From the NCBI RefSeq assembly GCF_013299165.1, contig NZ_JAAFKD010000004.1, positions 1 to 64,000 on the forward strand: a stretch of 64,000 nucleotides of DNA, given 5' to 3'. The stretch is from Microcoleus sp. bin38.metabat.b11b12b14.051. Its GTDB lineage: Bacteria > Cyanobacteriota > Cyanobacteriia > Cyanobacteriales > Microcoleaceae. The notes under the pieces were generated by a model. The model was not told where the DNA came from, searched no databases, and was given only the letters and a program-made list of their open reading frames with translations. A program made the translations under genes and the position numbers. This document shows, piece by piece, positions 6,829-60,620 of the stretch (its first letter is position 1; each line of letters opens with the position of its first letter).

Positions 6829-6831
6829 AGT

Positions 6832-6985
6832 CATTAGTCATTAGTCATTAGTCAGTTGTCATTAGTCAGTTGTCATTAGTCAGTTGTCATTAGTCAGTTG
6901 TCATTAGTCAGTTGTCATTAGTCAGTTGTCATTAGTCAGTTGTCATTTTAGCCTCCGAGCGAAGTTGAAGGCTGGTCAGTTGTCA
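6832..6985. repeat. 14-bp tandem repeat (CATTAGTCAGTTGT)
   Basis: Immediately after the cyclase stop a 14-base unit, itself two related heptamers (TTAGTCA and GTTGTCA), is repeated about seven times, ending near 6945, with a further degenerate copy near 6977-6990. It resembles the short tandemly repeated repetitive sequences known from filamentous cyanobacteria. The rest of the 6829-7196 gap has no gene that I can see. Confidence 0.85.
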
Positions 6986-34687: not shown

Positions 34688-34852
34688 GTTGACTGTTGAC
34701 TGTTGACTGTTGACTGTTGACTGTTGACTGTTGACTGTTGACTGTTGACTGTTGACTGTTGACTGTTGACTGTTGACTGTTGACTGTTGATTGTTGATTG
34801 TTGATTGTTGACTGTTGACTGTTGACTGTTGACTGTTGACTGTTGACTGTTG
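34688..34852. repeat. TTGACTG heptamer tract
   Basis: About 23 consecutive copies of TTGACTG (a few TTGATTG), between the mtnX start and the end of the NtcA-like regulator gene. It is a classic cyanobacterial short tandem repeat; the copy number probably varies between strains. TTGAC also resembles a -35 box, so the tract could offer many weak promoter elements in the minus-strand mtnX direction only if read on the other strand; I do not claim this. Confidence 0.92.
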
Positions 34853-34986
34853 ACCGCAGGAAGAAGGAATAAGAAAACTGTCGTCTTCCGAAAGGGTTTC
34901 AAGAATTAATAACTTTCTGACCTTCACAGGAATTGCTATATATAATAGCTACCCGCTGTTTGTTGGCAATAGCCCGGAGGATTCGG

Positions 34987-45232: not shown

Positions 45233-45420
45233 TGTTGACAGTTGACAGTTGACAGTTGACAGTTGACAGTTGACAGTTGACAGTTGACAGTTGACTGTTG
45301 ACAGTTGACTGTTGACTGTTGACAATTGACAGAACAAAGAGGGAAGAAGGGGAGAATTGACTAATGACCAATAACCAATGACAACTGACCACTGACCAAT
45401 AACCAATGACAACTGACCAC
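45233..45420. repeat. GTTGACA heptamer tract and related simple repeats
   Basis: About 13 copies of GTTGACA/GTTGACT (45233-45332), then TGACCAATAACCAATGACAACTGACCA repeated in part to 45420. It fills the gap between the convergent glcF and WD40 genes; no terminator hairpin is otherwise visible. Confidence 0.88.
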
Positions 45421-50185: not shown

Positions 50186-50500
50186 TAATTAGTCAGTTGT
50201 CTGTTGTCTGTTGTCTGTTGTCTGTTGTCTGTTGTCTGTTGTCTGTTGTCTGTTGTCTGTTGTCATTGGTAATTGGTTATTGATCGGTCAGCATTCAGCA
50301 TTCAGCATTCAGCAGTCAGCAGTCATTTGTCATTTGTCATTTGTCATTTGTCATTGGAAAATTTAGTAATTGACAATTGGATAATTTGTAATTAATAATT
50401 ATTGGTGATTTTTTTAGCAGCTTCATTATTACCAATGACTAATGACAAATGACCAATGACAACTGACAACTGACCACCCTTCGACTTCGCGAGCGGGTAA
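50186..50500. repeat. TGTTGTC heptamer tract and other simple repeats
   Basis: About ten copies of CTGTTGT (50196-50262), CAGCATT x3 and GTCAGCA x2 near 50290-50325, TTTGTCA x4 near 50325-50352, and TGACAAATGACCAATGACAAC repeats up to 50480. Nothing coding in the 50177-50537 gap. Confidence 0.88.
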
Positions 50501-55551: not shown

Positions 55552-55733
55552 AAGTTTAATTATTGAATTCAGGTTTGAGATTCGCGCCGGAATTTCTGAA
55601 TTTTGCAGTAAAATCAAACCAGGAGCTTAATCGCAGTTTCAAAATTTCTGAAACCTTTATTTCTTCGCGTCCTTCGCGTCTTCGCGGTTCAATTCCGATC
55701 CCGATTCCTACGCAACTCCTATTTTAGCTAAAA

Positions 55734-58700
55734 ATGAACGCTTCTGTGCCACCTGCTAGCAATAATATTTCTGAAGTTGTCAAGAAGTTGCGCCGCCTCA
55801 GTCAAGTGGAGGTTCTGTCTGGTTGGAAATATTGCGATGGGGACTCGGTAGGTATTTCTAACGCAAAGGTGGCGGAACTTAACGGGAAAGGACATATTGC
55901 TTGGCCGTCTGGGAAGCAAGTTGTTTTTTTGGCGCAGAAATTCGTGATTCCTGACAATTTGCACGGCTATCCGCTGGTGGGTTTGCGGTTGCTGTTGGGC
56001 TTGACTTGGTGGGCAGAAGATGCTGCAATTTTTGTTAACGGTGAGTTAGTCGGACAAGGTGATTTGTTCGATTGTGCCGATCGAGTTTTGTTGAGTTCGT
56101 CGGTAAGTCCGGGAGATGAATTTTTGGTTGTGTTGCGCTTGATAAGCCCCGGCCACGACAGCGGTGCTCTAGTGCGATCGATTTGTTTGTACGAAGCTGC
56201 CGATCCTGGTTGTTTCGATCCGGGCTTTGTGGCGGACGAATTAGAGATTTTGCAACGGGCGATCGATCAAAATTTACCAAATCAAATTTTTTCAGGTTTT
56301 GCCACACTAAATTTAGCAAGCAGTCCAATTTTTGTCAATGCCCAACTGCTAAAATCTCAGATTGATTTGGCGGTGGGTAATATTGATTGGTCTGCTTTGC
56401 CGAACCGACAAAAGTTCGATCGCTCTTTGTCTGTTTTGCGGCACAATTTACTGGGATATCTGCGGGCTTTTTCTGAAGAGTTGGATGCTTTAACCGCAGA
56501 GGGCGCTGAGGACACGGAGGGAGGAGTTAGTGTTGCTTTTTCTGATGTTGCTGAAAATCATCATGGTACATCTATATATATCAGGGAAAATCCTGAGTGT
56601 TCCTCTTTTTCTGAAGAGTTGGATGCTTTAACCGCAGAGGGCGCTGAGGGCGCTGAGGGAGGAGTTAGTGTTGCTTTTTCTGAGGTTGCTGAAAATCATC
56701 ATGGTACATCTATATATATCAGGGAAAATCCTGAGTGTTCCTCTTTTTCTGAAGAGTTGGATGCTTTAACCGCAGAGGGCGCAGAGGGCGCTGAGGGAGA
56801 TATTGGTGTTGCTTTTTCTGATGTTGCTGAAAATCATCATGGTACATCTATATATATCAGGGAAAATCCTGAGTGTTCCTCTTTTTCTGAAGAGTTGGAT
56901 GATTTAACCGCAGAGGGCGCAGAGGGCGCTGAGGGAGGAGTTAGTGTTGCTTTTTCTGAGGTTGCTGAAAATCATCATGGTACATCTATATATATCAGGG
57001 AAAATCCTGAGTGTGCTTCTTTTTCTGAAGAGTTGGATGATTTAACCGCAGAGGGCGCAGAGGGCGCTGAGGGAGGAGTTAGTGTTGCTTTTTCTGAGGT
57101 TGCTGAAAATCATCATGGTACATCTATATATATCAGGGAAAATCCTGAGTGTGCTTCTTTTTCTGAAGAGTTGGATGATTTAACCGCAGAGGGCGCAGAG
57201 GGCGCTGAGGGAGGAGTTAGTGTTGCTTTTTCTGAGGTTGCTGAAAATCATCATGGTACATCTATATATATCAGGGAAAATCCTGAGTGTGCTTCTTTTT
57301 CTGAAGAGTTGGATGATTTAACCGCAGAGGGCGCAGAGGGCGCTGAGGGAGGAGTTAGTGTTGCTTTTTCTGAGGTTGCTGAAAATCATCATGGTACATC
57401 TATATATATCAGGGAAAATCCTGAGTGTGCTTCTTTTTCTGAAGAGTTGGATGATTTAACCGCAGAGGGCGCAGAGGGCGCTGAGGGAGGAGTTAGTGTT
57501 GCTTTTTCTGAGGTTGCTGAAAATCATCATGGTACATCTATATATATAGGTGAAACTGGCGATATAGCTTTTCTCCATCAAGCAAGGCACTCGCCAGCCA
57601 ATCAGCAATCAGCAATTACCAATCAGCAATTACCAATCAGCAATTACCAATCCAGACCTGACTCACTGAAAGTTTGCCAGAAATCTATATATATAGGTAA
57701 AATTTATTTGGTTGGTCACGCTCATTTAGACTTAGCTTGGTTGTGGCCGGTACCGGAAACTTGGGAAGCAGCAGAGCGAACTTTTGAGTCGGTATTGAAA
57801 TTGCAATCTGAGTTTCCCGATTTGATTTTTTGTCATTCAACTCCGGCGCTTTATGCTTGGATGGAAGAGCACCGCCCGGATTTATTTGCTGCGATTCAGA
57901 AACAGGTAGCTGCGGGTTGTTGGGAAGTTGTTGGCGGGATGTGGGTTGAACCGGATTTAAACTTGATTTCGGCTGAGTCGATGGTGCGACAAGTTTTTTA
58001 CGGACAGCGTTATGCGAAAGAAAAGTTTGGGGAATTGATGCGGGTGGCTTGGCTACCGGATACTTTTGGTTTTGGATGGCAATTACCCCAGATTTTGCGG
58101 CAAGGTGGAGTTGATTATTTTGTGACGCAAAAGTTGCGCTGGAATGATACGACGGAATTTCCCTACGGTGCCTTTGGCTGGGAAGGGTTGGACGGTACTA
58201 CAATATTTAGCATGATGTCTGGTGCGATCGGCGAAAGTGTAGAATCTGTAAAAATGGCAAGTTACGCTTTTGATTGGCAAGTTAAAACTAATTTACTGGA
58301 TGCTCTTTGGTTGCCGGGAGTTGGCGACCACGGCGGCGGCCCGACTCGCGATATGCTAGAGGTGGCGAAACGCTGGAAATTGTCGCCTTTTTTCCCGAAG
58401 TTGCATTTTGCTAAAGCAGTTGATTATCTATCTTTGATTGAAAGTCAGTTTTTGTCACCAGTGGCGGATTCCCAGTCTCAATCCTCTATTTCGCAACCGC
58501 CAACTCAGGAAAATTTACATATTACTGAAGTCGCCGAAAATTTGTCGTCAGATATCGCTAAGGAAGGTGGCGCCGAAAATTCGACAACTTTACCCGCAAG
58601 TCAAACGACATCGCCCGAATACGGGGAAAGTTTTCAACTTGGGAAGACAGCCGATAATTTGGTGGCGTCAGGCGGTAATTTTTCCGGCGAAATGTCGGAA

Positions 58701-60620
58701 TTAAAGCCTGAATACCTTGATTTGCCAGCAGAGATTCACAACGAAAAATCTCAACTACCAAATTCTCCCCATCTCCCTCTCCCTCACGCCCCTATTCTCC
58801 CGATTTGGAAAGACGAACTTTATTTAGAGTTCCATCGAGGCTGCTACACGACTCGCGCCGACCAAAAACGCCAAAACCGCCGCTGTGAAGAATTGCTTTA
58901 TCAAGCGGAATTGCTGTCTGCGATCGCCACAATTTGCACTGGTGCGGTTTATCCTCGATCCGAGCTAGAATCAGCTTGGAAACAAATTTTGTTTAACCAG
59001 TTTCACGATATTTTGCCCGGTTCTGCGATCGCCCAGGTCTACACTGATGCTAATCTAGCCTTTGCCGAGGTCGATCACGCTTGTCGCCACATCCTGCTAC
59101 AATCTTTAGATGCCATCGCAGCTCGAATTTCTCTGCCTGCTCCACCGCAGCCGGACGCTCAACCGATTTTTGTTTTCAATACTCTCAATTGGTCGCGATC
59201 GCAGGTTGTCGCCGTACCGCTTCCCGATTCCTCCTCGGCTTGGCAAATTTACGATTTGTGCCCACACCGCCTGACTTCACAGATTCTCGCGGGCGATCGA
59301 GAGTCATTGCCCTTTACAATTTTATTCTCTGCCAGTGACATCCCGGCGATCGGCTACCGCGTGTTTTGGCTCTGTCGGGAAGTTCAAACTGTCGATCGTC
59401 CGCCTGTAAGCTCAGCCACGGAAAAAAACACAGAGTTATCAAAACTTACATACGGTATAGCACAAAAAAACACGCCTTGTCAAGAAACGCATTTTGTAGC
59501 CCCAGAAATCATCTTAGAAAATGAACTTATTCGGGCAATAGTAGACGCAGAAACTGGCAACTTATCCAGCATTTGGGATAAAGTAAATCAACGAGAAGTC
59601 CTGAATGCAGCCGGAGGCAATCAACTGCAAGCCTTTCAAGACAGCGGCCAATATTGGGATGCTTGGAACATCGATCCGAATTATCAACAACATCCATTAC
59701 CCGCGCCGCTACTCAAAGAAATTTCTTGGGTAGAGCGGGGAGAAGTGCGACAGAGTTTGCGCGTGGTTGTGCAAATTGGTAAATCGGAGTTTCGCCAATA
59801 TTATACAGTAGAGAAAGGTTCGCCGCTGCTGAAAATTAAGACAGTTGCAGATTGGCAAGAAACTCACGTATTAGTAAAAACAGCCTTCGGATTAAATGTA
59901 GAAGCAGATTTTGCAACGTGCGAAATTCCCGGCGGCGCGATCGCGCGATCGACAAAACCGCAGACACCCGCCGAAAAAGCCAAATGGGAAGTACCGATTT
60001 TGCGCTGGACAGATATCAGCAATGACGGTTTTGGAGTGAGTTTGCTTAACGATTGCAAATACGGCTGCGACATTCAACCGAATCAAATTAGGCTGACTTT
60101 GCTCCGGGGTTCGACTTGGCCCGATGAAGCGGCCGATCGAGGAGTCAGCGAATTTACTTGTGCAGTCTATCCTCACGCTGGAAATTGGCAGGATGCCGGC
60201 ACAGTTCGGCGCGGGTACGAGTTGAATTTGCCACTGTTGGTAAAGGTACTGCCGAAGTTGGGGGAAAATCAAAATCCGACTCTACCCGCAGTTGGCAAGT
60301 TCCTAGATTTAGCAGCCCAAAATCTAGTGTTGATGGCATTTAAACAGTCGGAAGACAATCCGAATGTGTGGATTTTGCGCTGTGGTGAATCCGAGGGGAA
60401 AGAAGCCGTGCTAGAGTTGGATAGCGATTTGGGATTACAGATTTCCGAGTCAGTGGATTTGCTAGAAAGACCTGCAAATTTGTCTGAAAAGTTGCTTCAA
60501 GGGCGAGGTTTTAAAATAGAACCTTGGAAAATAGCCAGTTTTGCTGTTGTAATGAACCGCGAAGGCGCTAAGGACGCGAAGGAAGAGGGGAAGGGAATAA
60601 CGGATAATTTCAAAATCTAA
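55734..60620 (+). CDS. GH38 alpha-mannosidase with in-frame repeat expansion
   Basis: A 1628-residue glycoside hydrolase of family 38, which removes alpha-mannose by a zinc-dependent retaining mechanism. N-terminal beta domain (about 1-190), catalytic start HAHLDLAWLWP with zinc ligands H664 and D666, nucleophile D776 in WLPDTFGFG, a further zinc His in FNQFHDILPGSAI, and C-terminal beta domains (about 1200-1600). Usual length is about 1050. The excess comes from (1) eight 46-residue repeats at residues 246-613, core FSEELDDLTAEGAEGAEGG, (2) a second low-complexity insertion about 905-1015, and (3) a repeat-derived tail (MNREGAKDAKEEGKG...). All keep frame. Cytosolic; substrate unknown, possibly storage or surface glycan turnover. 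Confidence 0.9.
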   Translation: MNASVPPASNNISEVVKKLRRLSQVEVLSGWKYCDGDSVGISNAKVAELNGKGHIAWPSGKQVVFLAQKFVIPDNLHGYPLVGLRLLLGLTWWAEDAAIFVNGELVGQGDLFDCADRVLLSSSVSPGDEFLVVLRLISPGHDSGALVRSICLYEAADPGCFDPGFVADELEILQRAIDQNLPNQIFSGFATLNLASSPIFVNAQLLKSQIDLAVGNIDWSALPNRQKFDRSLSVLRHNLLGYLRAFSEELDALTAEGAEDTEGGVSVAFSDVAENHHGTSIYIRENPECSSFSEELDALTAEGAEGAEGGVSVAFSEVAENHHGTSIYIRENPECSSFSEELDALTAEGAEGAEGDIGVAFSDVAENHHGTSIYIRENPECSSFSEELDDLTAEGAEGAEGGVSVAFSEVAENHHGTSIYIRENPECASFSEELDDLTAEGAEGAEGGVSVAFSEVAENHHGTSIYIRENPECASFSEELDDLTAEGAEGAEGGVSVAFSEVAENHHGTSIYIRENPECASFSEELDDLTAEGAEGAEGGVSVAFSEVAENHHGTSIYIRENPECASFSEELDDLTAEGAEGAEGGVSVAFSEVAENHHGTSIYIGETGDIAFLHQARHSPANQQSAITNQQLPISNYQSRPDSLKVCQKSIYIGKIYLVGHAHLDLAWLWPVPETWEAAERTFESVLKLQSEFPDLIFCHSTPALYAWMEEHRPDLFAAIQKQVAAGCWEVVGGMWVEPDLNLISAESMVRQVFYGQRYAKEKFGELMRVAWLPDTFGFGWQLPQILRQGGVDYFVTQKLRWNDTTEFPYGAFGWEGLDGTTIFSMMSGAIGESVESVKMASYAFDWQVKTNLLDALWLPGVGDHGGGPTRDMLEVAKRWKLSPFFPKLHFAKAVDYLSLIESQFLSPVADSQSQSSISQPPTQENLHITEVAENLSSDIAKEGGAENSTTLPASQTTSPEYGESFQLGKTADNLVASGGNFSGEMSELKPEYLDLPAEIHNEKSQLPNSPHLPLPHAPILPIWKDELYLEFHRGCYTTRADQKRQNRRCEELLYQAELLSAIATICTGAVYPRSELESAWKQILFNQFHDILPGSAIAQVYTDANLAFAEVDHACRHILLQSLDAIAARISLPAPPQPDAQPIFVFNTLNWSRSQVVAVPLPDSSSAWQIYDLCPHRLTSQILAGDRESLPFTILFSASDIPAIGYRVFWLCREVQTVDRPPVSSATEKNTELSKLTYGIAQKNTPCQETHFVAPEIILENELIRAIVDAETGNLSSIWDKVNQREVLNAAGGNQLQAFQDSGQYWDAWNIDPNYQQHPLPAPLLKEISWVERGEVRQSLRVVVQIGKSEFRQYYTVEKGSPLLKIKTVADWQETHVLVKTAFGLNVEADFATCEIPGGAIARSTKPQTPAEKAKWEVPILRWTDISNDGFGVSLLNDCKYGCDIQPNQIRLTLLRGSTWPDEAADRGVSEFTCAVYPHAGNWQDAGTVRRGYELNLPLLVKVLPKLGENQNPTLPAVGKFLDLAAQNLVLMAFKQSEDNPNVWILRCGESEGKEAVLELDSDLGLQISESVDLLERPANLSEKLLQGRGFKIEPWKIASFAVVMNREGAKDAKEEGKGITDNFKI
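56469..57572 (+). repeat. 138-bp in-frame tandem repeat, eight copies, within the GH38 gene
   Basis: Units start every 138 bases from 56469. The first three carry GATGCT (Asp-Ala) and the last five GATGAT (Asp-Asp) at the same place; copies 4-7 are almost identical. The last copy ends in CATCTATATATATAGGTGAAA, and the same TCTATATATATAGGTAAAA recurs at 57684-57702 where the catalytic domain resumes, as if the array grew between a duplicated site. The ACCGCAGAGGGCGC core resembles the ACCGCGAAGGCGC element found at the gene's 3' end (60555) and inverted before its start (55664). Confidence 0.92.

Follow-up and report, generated by a model that had tools for sequence, protein, structure and literature searches.

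Intragenic minisatellites, also termed coding VNTRs, are arrays of in-frame, near-identical units with variable copy number. Another group of short repeats, the small dispersed repeats (SDRs) of cyanobacteria, was reportedly described by Elhai and colleagues in 2008. One member, SDR5, is mentioned in PMC4390886, and passages of PMC10969869 and PMC3733652 deal with Rickettsia palindromic elements and intragenic REPs, which are short dispersed elements that lie in frame inside genes.

The array that we describe here, in a gene for a predicted GH38 alpha-mannosidase of Microcoleus, resembles the coding VNTRs in its in-frame, near-identical units and in a copy number that varies between related species, but it is located in an enzyme linker adjoining the active-site domain, and its variation is known between species only. 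The core of its unit is like the SDRs in being a short dispersed cyanobacterial element, a likeness that holds at the level of general description and carries no assignment to an SDR family. It is also like the Rickettsia palindromic elements and intragenic REPs in being both dispersed and in frame within a gene; unlike them, it is not palindromic-looking, and the unit that contains it has been amplified in tandem. The array is a clear case of genome change of a kind already known, and not a new system. What is unusual is its retention throughout a genus, with clear stages, together with a Ser-Ile-Tyr (SIY) piece that has been kept. Among the papers listed by our literature search, none concerns this array or the occurrence of repeats in GH38 enzymes of cyanobacteria, and this is a weak negative.

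The gene occupies positions 55734-60620 on the plus strand of the window, by which we mean the whole 64-kb stretch of DNA analysed, and encodes 1628 aa in an open reading frame that is uninterrupted across the array. Its product is predicted to be a GH38 alpha-mannosidase of the Ams1/Bl_Man38A-like kind on the basis of structure and sequence matches. Glyco_hydro_38N was identified by Pfam at residues 656-908 (E 3.3e-85), and Alpha-mann_mid, Glyco_hydro_38C and Glyco_hydro38C2 also score above their own cut-offs, giving four GH38 domains in total; the GH38 N, middle and C domains reach 286, 100 and 219 bits against Pfam cut-offs of 25, 31 and 25. The start of the catalytic domain (57699-58460, plus strand), which served as the ortholog-search query, begins with KIYLVGHAHLD, HAHLD being encoded at 57717-57731. 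Across 53 sequences, H662, H664, D666, W773, P775, D776, F778 and G779 are invariant and A663, L665 and L774 nearly so; we take the HAHLD and WLPDTFG residues to be catalytic motif positions. The closest sequence and fold matches of the enzyme are Ams1-type GH38 proteins (Bl_Man38A, 7ufr; S. pombe Ams1, 6lz1), the best-matched stretch, which starts near residue 641, lying in the catalytic domain. Mannosylglycerate hydrolase (NCBIfam PRK09819) was rejected as an alternative identity at 95.6 bits against a cut-off of 1138.

Between the N-terminal region and the catalytic domain, in linker 1, eight 138-bp (46-aa) units follow one another in tandem and in frame (56467-57555, plus strand), as delimited by Tandem Repeats Finder and a unit search. 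For the array, Tandem Repeats Finder gave a period of 138, 7.9 copies, 97% matches and a score of 2022. With its tandem, in-frame, near-identical units, the array is a coding minisatellite. The preliminary description of an eight-copy, in-frame 138-bp array in a GH38 mannosidase is borne out by these results, by the open reading frame and by Pfam, but its statement that the array enlarges the enzyme by more than a third was too high, as about 368 aa on about 1260 aa amount to 29%. Each unit can be followed through the 138-bp periodicity of its dispersed-repeat core (TTTAACCGCAGAGGGCGC... in unit 1, 56489-56530, plus strand), in which ACCGC recurs from 56493 to 57459. The TCTATATAT sequence that encodes Ser-Ile-Tyr lies at 56571-56579 (plus strand) in unit 1 and recurs at 56709, 56847, 56985, 57123, 57261, 57399, 57537 and 57684. 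In the same linker, 3' of the array, a 7/14-bp CAATCAG/CAATTAC repeat found by Tandem Repeats Finder is also translated in frame (57599-57652, plus strand), and the last SIYIG copy (57684-57698, plus strand) is located directly 5' of the catalytic domain. The array alone (410 aa) has no single stretch above the cut-off of a known Pfam domain, and this possibility was rejected. Its whole-protein scores for Zw10_N (39.4 versus 26.3), HicB-like_2 (38.7 versus 30) and Peptidase_A17 (22.9 versus 22.3) are read as sums over the repeat copies, and HicB-like_2 falls under its cut-off in the full-length protein.

Tandem repeats are also found elsewhere in the 64-kb window, where Tandem Repeats Finder returned 47 rows, some of them overlapping; 7-bp and 14-bp tandem arrays lie at 6830-6947, 34688-34854, 45234-45332 and 50192-50264 (GTCATTAGTCAGTT, GTTGACT, GTTGACA, GTCTGTT).

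When the unit at 57155-57292 was used as the query, three units were identical (138/138), the unit preceding them matched at 100% over 137 bases, and the remaining four showed 96-99% identity. The assembly from which the copy number of eight was read consists of 64 contigs, and since three 138-bp units are identical, this number could be miscounted. Short reads cannot span identical units of this length, and the contigs of other assemblies end inside linker 1 (G007 and G015) or about 35 codons beyond it (G002), as would be expected if the eight copies were an assembly artefact and the true number were lower or different. We regard such an artefact as unlikely, given that the 320,675-bp contig continues through the array and that units 1, 2, 3 and 8 differ from one another and from units 4-7, so that at least five different units are present whatever the count.

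The relation of the unit to repeats elsewhere was established in the organism's own genome. A search with one unit returned the eight array copies and at least 50 other matches (40 of 93 candidates scored), and among the matches listed, those outside the gene span only parts of unit positions 3-66. The earlier proposal of a dispersed repeat at the heart of the unit is thereby supported, and the whole 138-bp unit was rejected as a mobile element, the listed matches outside the gene covering the core part only. The likeness to a dispersed, mostly intergenic repeat is confined to about 45 bp of each unit, roughly one-third of its length, so that inserted and gene-derived portions are hard to tell apart; the remainder is gene-specific. 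The pattern ACCGCAGAGGNCGC occurs at 65 genome sites, eight of which are the array, and the variant pattern ACCGCGAAGNCGCNAAG at 36 sites, with no site for the reversed control pattern in either case. From 47 dispersed copies with distinct left flanks we derived the consensus TttTTTA-ACCGCAGAGGGCGCAGAGGGCGC-AGAGgaAGagaagagagag, to which the in-gene TTTA-core-tGAGGGAGGAG is similar. In 40 genome regions picked from the pattern and unit search matches (16 of the 57 pattern sites outside the array fall outside this set), 50 of 62 core matches lie outside any ORF with a length of 100 aa or above, both strands considered. In having many near-identical copies at unrelated, mainly intergenic sites, the core resembles a dispersed repeat of the SDR/MITE-like kind. 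Short inverted repeats, GGAATGATT ... AATAATTCC, seem to flank a few of these copies in a MITE-like manner (L161, L163 and L164 on C9, C5 and C2; judged by eye and uncounted).

Tandem arrays seeded by the core also occur elsewhere in the genome, mostly outside ORFs (L141-L145 on C44, C59, C2, C24 and C14). Their periods are 101/102, 120, 137, 153/154, 164 and 166/174, and the core is thus often found in tandem arrays in its own genome. The periods of 101, 137, 154, 164 and 166 are not multiples of three, whereas the mannosidase array stays in frame. The SIYIG part of the unit (CATCTATATATATAGG) was rejected as a dispersed repeat: no exact match was found outside the mannosidase gene in the organism's own genome, and a search allowing up to two mismatches gave three other sites in that genome, fewer than the five obtained with the reversed control.

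Two further elements lie at the borders of the gene, at 55664 and 60555. They had been described as matching the core of the array, but they read ACCGCGAAGACGCGAAG and ACCGCGAAGGCGCTAAG and represent a variant whose degenerate pattern is similar. The upstream one (55672-55688, minus strand) lies outside the gene, and the other is translated in frame as the C-terminal tail MNREGAKDAKEEGKGITDNFKI (60552-60620, plus strand). By eye, this C-terminal element is present in five of 16 readable C-termini of the genus (the window, L064, L066, L068 and L107) and absent from the other 11, a count that omits loci with an earlier stop (L061, L063, L079 and L083) and those that run off (L062, L075, L076 and L080-L082). 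The tail is thus a dispersed element, as had been supposed, in its variant form. Of the three entries into the gene that had been proposed, those at the linker, followed by duplication, and at the C-terminus stand, and the third falls, its element being upstream of the gene.

The distribution of the unit among relatives was examined with the catalytic-domain query in genome collections holding one genome per species. A match was found in 57 of 59 genomes, and 80 loci were kept. The linker was inspected at 56 of these, 25 assigned to the genus of the window (Microcoleus in the wide sense) and 31 to others; genus assignment included an identity of at least 85%, and the 31 others are all at most 78% identical. 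A recognisable unit was present at the same linker position at all 25 genus loci and absent at all 31 loci assigned to other genera. The same repeat number in distant genera, which the preliminary description had named as the sign of an old conserved domain, was therefore not encountered. In the closest outgroups, Kamptonema (L085) and USR001 (L086), the linker bears no likeness to the unit, L084 was without linker, and a locus from another genus (L095) has TCTATATAT less than 300 nt upstream, where it is read as DFSIYIDV without a unit. Among the 22 complete linkers of the genus, 11 have one copy, ten have two and a single one has three; G018 has one copy and G011 has three. L062 (N gap), L063 and L070 (contig ends) were left out of these counts, and L073 was counted as having two copies, the TAE inside ETAER not being taken as a unit. 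Degenerate units, with a shortened core and another insert in mid-unit, occur in L074, L075 and L077.

Copy number consequently differs between related species, from one to three in the relatives to eight in the window. In a tree of the units, from which L062 was omitted, as it was from the codon profile, the eight units of the window form one clade with a support of 0.997, and their sister is formed by the L061 and L063 units (0.890). Repeated insertion as the origin of the eight copies was rejected on account of this single clade, which, together with the higher copy number, agrees with the recent growth that had been suggested for the array. The best match of 13 of the 31 units from multi-copy genomes is in another genome, and some two-copy arrangements are therefore older than the species that carry them. 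On these sequences, the simplest history would have a single insertion precede the radiation of the genus, with duplication early on in some of its lineages and a recent burst in that of the window.

We consider it probable that a dispersed repeat lying at the boundary between two domains gave rise to a coding minisatellite in the following way. A single insertion, in the ancestor of the genus, would have placed a mostly intergenic repeat of about 45-50 bp, consisting of a T-tract, ACCGCAGAGGGCGCAGAGGGCGC and a purine-rich tail, in linker 1 and in a frame that the protein tolerates. The inserted core and neighbouring gene-specific sequence would then have become a 46-residue unit that duplicated in tandem, presumably via replication slippage or unequal recombination, with most relatives retaining one to three copies and the lineage of the window expanding to eight. 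A flexible, weakly constrained linker would tolerate such in-frame growth, probably with the activity of the enzyme unaffected, and frame-breaking changes would have been purged because the enzyme is needed. Weighing against this account are the limited reach of the dispersed likeness within the unit, the degenerate units of L074, L075 and L077, the two-copy arrangements that are older than their species and the broken linker 2 frames in four relatives (below); neither movement of the core nor a within-species allele with an empty site was observed.

The substitution rates differ strongly along the protein. Over 11 species pairs, the dN/dS of linker 1 was 0.50-2.57, compared with 0.09-0.29 for the N-terminal region and 0.05-0.15 for the catalytic region; the ratios were computed from printed dN and dS, some linker values represent one to four synonymous differences, and a twelfth pair, L074-L075, was dropped since its anchor was not found. 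High values in the linker and low values in the catalytic region indicate that the enzyme is kept and that the linker is almost free. Within the unit, however, two pieces are unlike pure filler. In the 25 first units, the core T-A-E is retained as T in 24, A in 22 and E in 24, and S-I-Y-I is unchanged in all 21 first units with enough context. This profile leaves out four first units, namely L068, which has no SIY, and L076, L080 and L081, which have SIYIG but a short downstream sequence; unit 1 of L068 is the only unit seen to have lost SIY. The retention of SIY and T-A-E counts against the tolerated-insertion account.

A rival explanation would be that selection acts on the unit as a protein module, formed by a beta-hairpin with SIYI(G) at its end and by an acidic spacer, the number of modules tuning the distance between the N-terminal and catalytic domains or their assembly. 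In the AF2 model of residues 1-909 of the window protein (53 sequences), the domains are confident and the array is of low confidence, with 344 residues below 50. About one hairpin per unit is drawn in this array (strands at, for example, 403-410 and 417-422), which together with the constant S-I-Y-I would fit a module. A query with the two-copy linker of L067 at E 0.01 is also consistent with it, as no other locus was matched in the 29 genus genomes. However, the pLDDT of these hairpins is low (about 44-62), and they are missing from the model of a two-copy orthologue, in which the linker (253-340) has a pLDDT below 50 and no strand. Moreover, the whole linker evolves near neutrally, unit 1 of L068 does without SIY, and unit-free relatives outside the genus retain the invariant residues of the catalytic domain. 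The beta-hairpin module is weakened by these models and comparisons, and we think it improbable. As the linker pLDDT is mostly 20-62 in the two models, we read the linker as mostly disordered, a property that the preliminary description had proposed for checking, and the hairpins as unproven.

The codons of the SIY piece bear on a further explanation. Linker SIY is coded TCT-ATA-TAT in 69 of 69 cases (26 sequences), and the lone other SIY counted, AGT-ATC-TAT in FSIYV, is absent from the linkers inspected. The 14-mer TCTATATATATAGG, with 42 occurrences spread over 25 of the 29 genomes of the genus, is confined to this gene; one match (G007:C65), on a separate short contig, was assigned to the linker. 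The genomes free of the 14-mer are G013, which has a linker with another ending, and G002, G008 and G009, which have no linker in the assembly. These counts are suggestive of synonymous constraint on SIY; by comparison, the codons of invariant catalytic residues undergo a mean of 2.31 changes on the tree, and each of six serine columns has changed. It could be proposed that TCTATATATATAGG is a DNA site or RNA hairpin signal carried by the units, with the protein repeat as a by-product; on this reading, what multiplies within the enzyme gene would be a DNA or RNA signal, and the SIYIG peptide would be its translation. We hold this to be very unlikely. Among the codons of catalytic invariant residues, 47 of 151 are also free of synonymous change, and runs of three such unchanged codons are found elsewhere in the gene. 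The core codons are kept too, with ACC in 22 of 24 Thr positions though it makes up 5.5% of Thr codons, and low synonymous change is therefore not special to the SIY motif. Furthermore, seven copies in the window read TATATATATCAGGG, G013 has a linker without the 14-mer, the motif was chosen post hoc, and counting via the SIY peptide omits copies that have lost it. ATA accounts for 18% of Ile codons and is not very rare, which also weakens the idea of rare-codon pausing at SIY.

The proposed origin of the array from a dispersed repeat can be set beside other insertions in the same part of the gene. Just 5' of the catalytic domain, core-like insertions in another frame are found in G045 (L030) and, degenerate, in Trichocoleus (L088); Calothrix (L106) has one some 160 nt upstream. 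In M. vaginatus HSN003 (L071, 3719-3766), a second dispersed element, the hairpin AACAGGCGGGACGCCTGTT, lies in frame inside the first core; each of four genomes of the genus holds 6 to 28 hairpins with at most two mismatches from it, in most cases exactly two. The core-like and hairpin insertions suggest that this stretch accepts insertions.

A second site of expansion in the relatives is linker 2, at the boundary of the catalytic and middle domains, which is 387 nt long in the window (58428-58814, plus strand), as against 96 nt in both Kamptonema and USR001. Within the genus, where 17 of 26 sequences allowed a measurement, ten have a linker 2 of 162-300 nt, L064 has one of 495 nt, and L061, L063, L079, L083 and L127 reach 792-2075 nt, the range for L061, L063 and L127 being 1047-2075 nt. 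Linker 2 expands independently in relatives. Its frame is broken by stops or frame changes in L061, L063, L079 and L083, and N runs are present in L061 and L083. The broken linkers may reflect decay or misassembly, and the enzyme is perhaps not needed everywhere; if the breaks are true decay, it would be dispensable in the lineages of L061, L063, L079 and L083. The length of an enzyme or a break in its frame should be read with caution in these genomes, as either can stem from the turnover of repeats or from assembly errors that repeats cause.

In this genus, a staged, multi-species series of what is apparently one event can be followed, in which a repeat became protein at a domain boundary, was kept and then grew in one lineage, with the neighbouring linker growing alongside in others. 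The series offers a usable test case for the tolerance of in-frame insertions in enzymes and for the origin of coding minisatellites.
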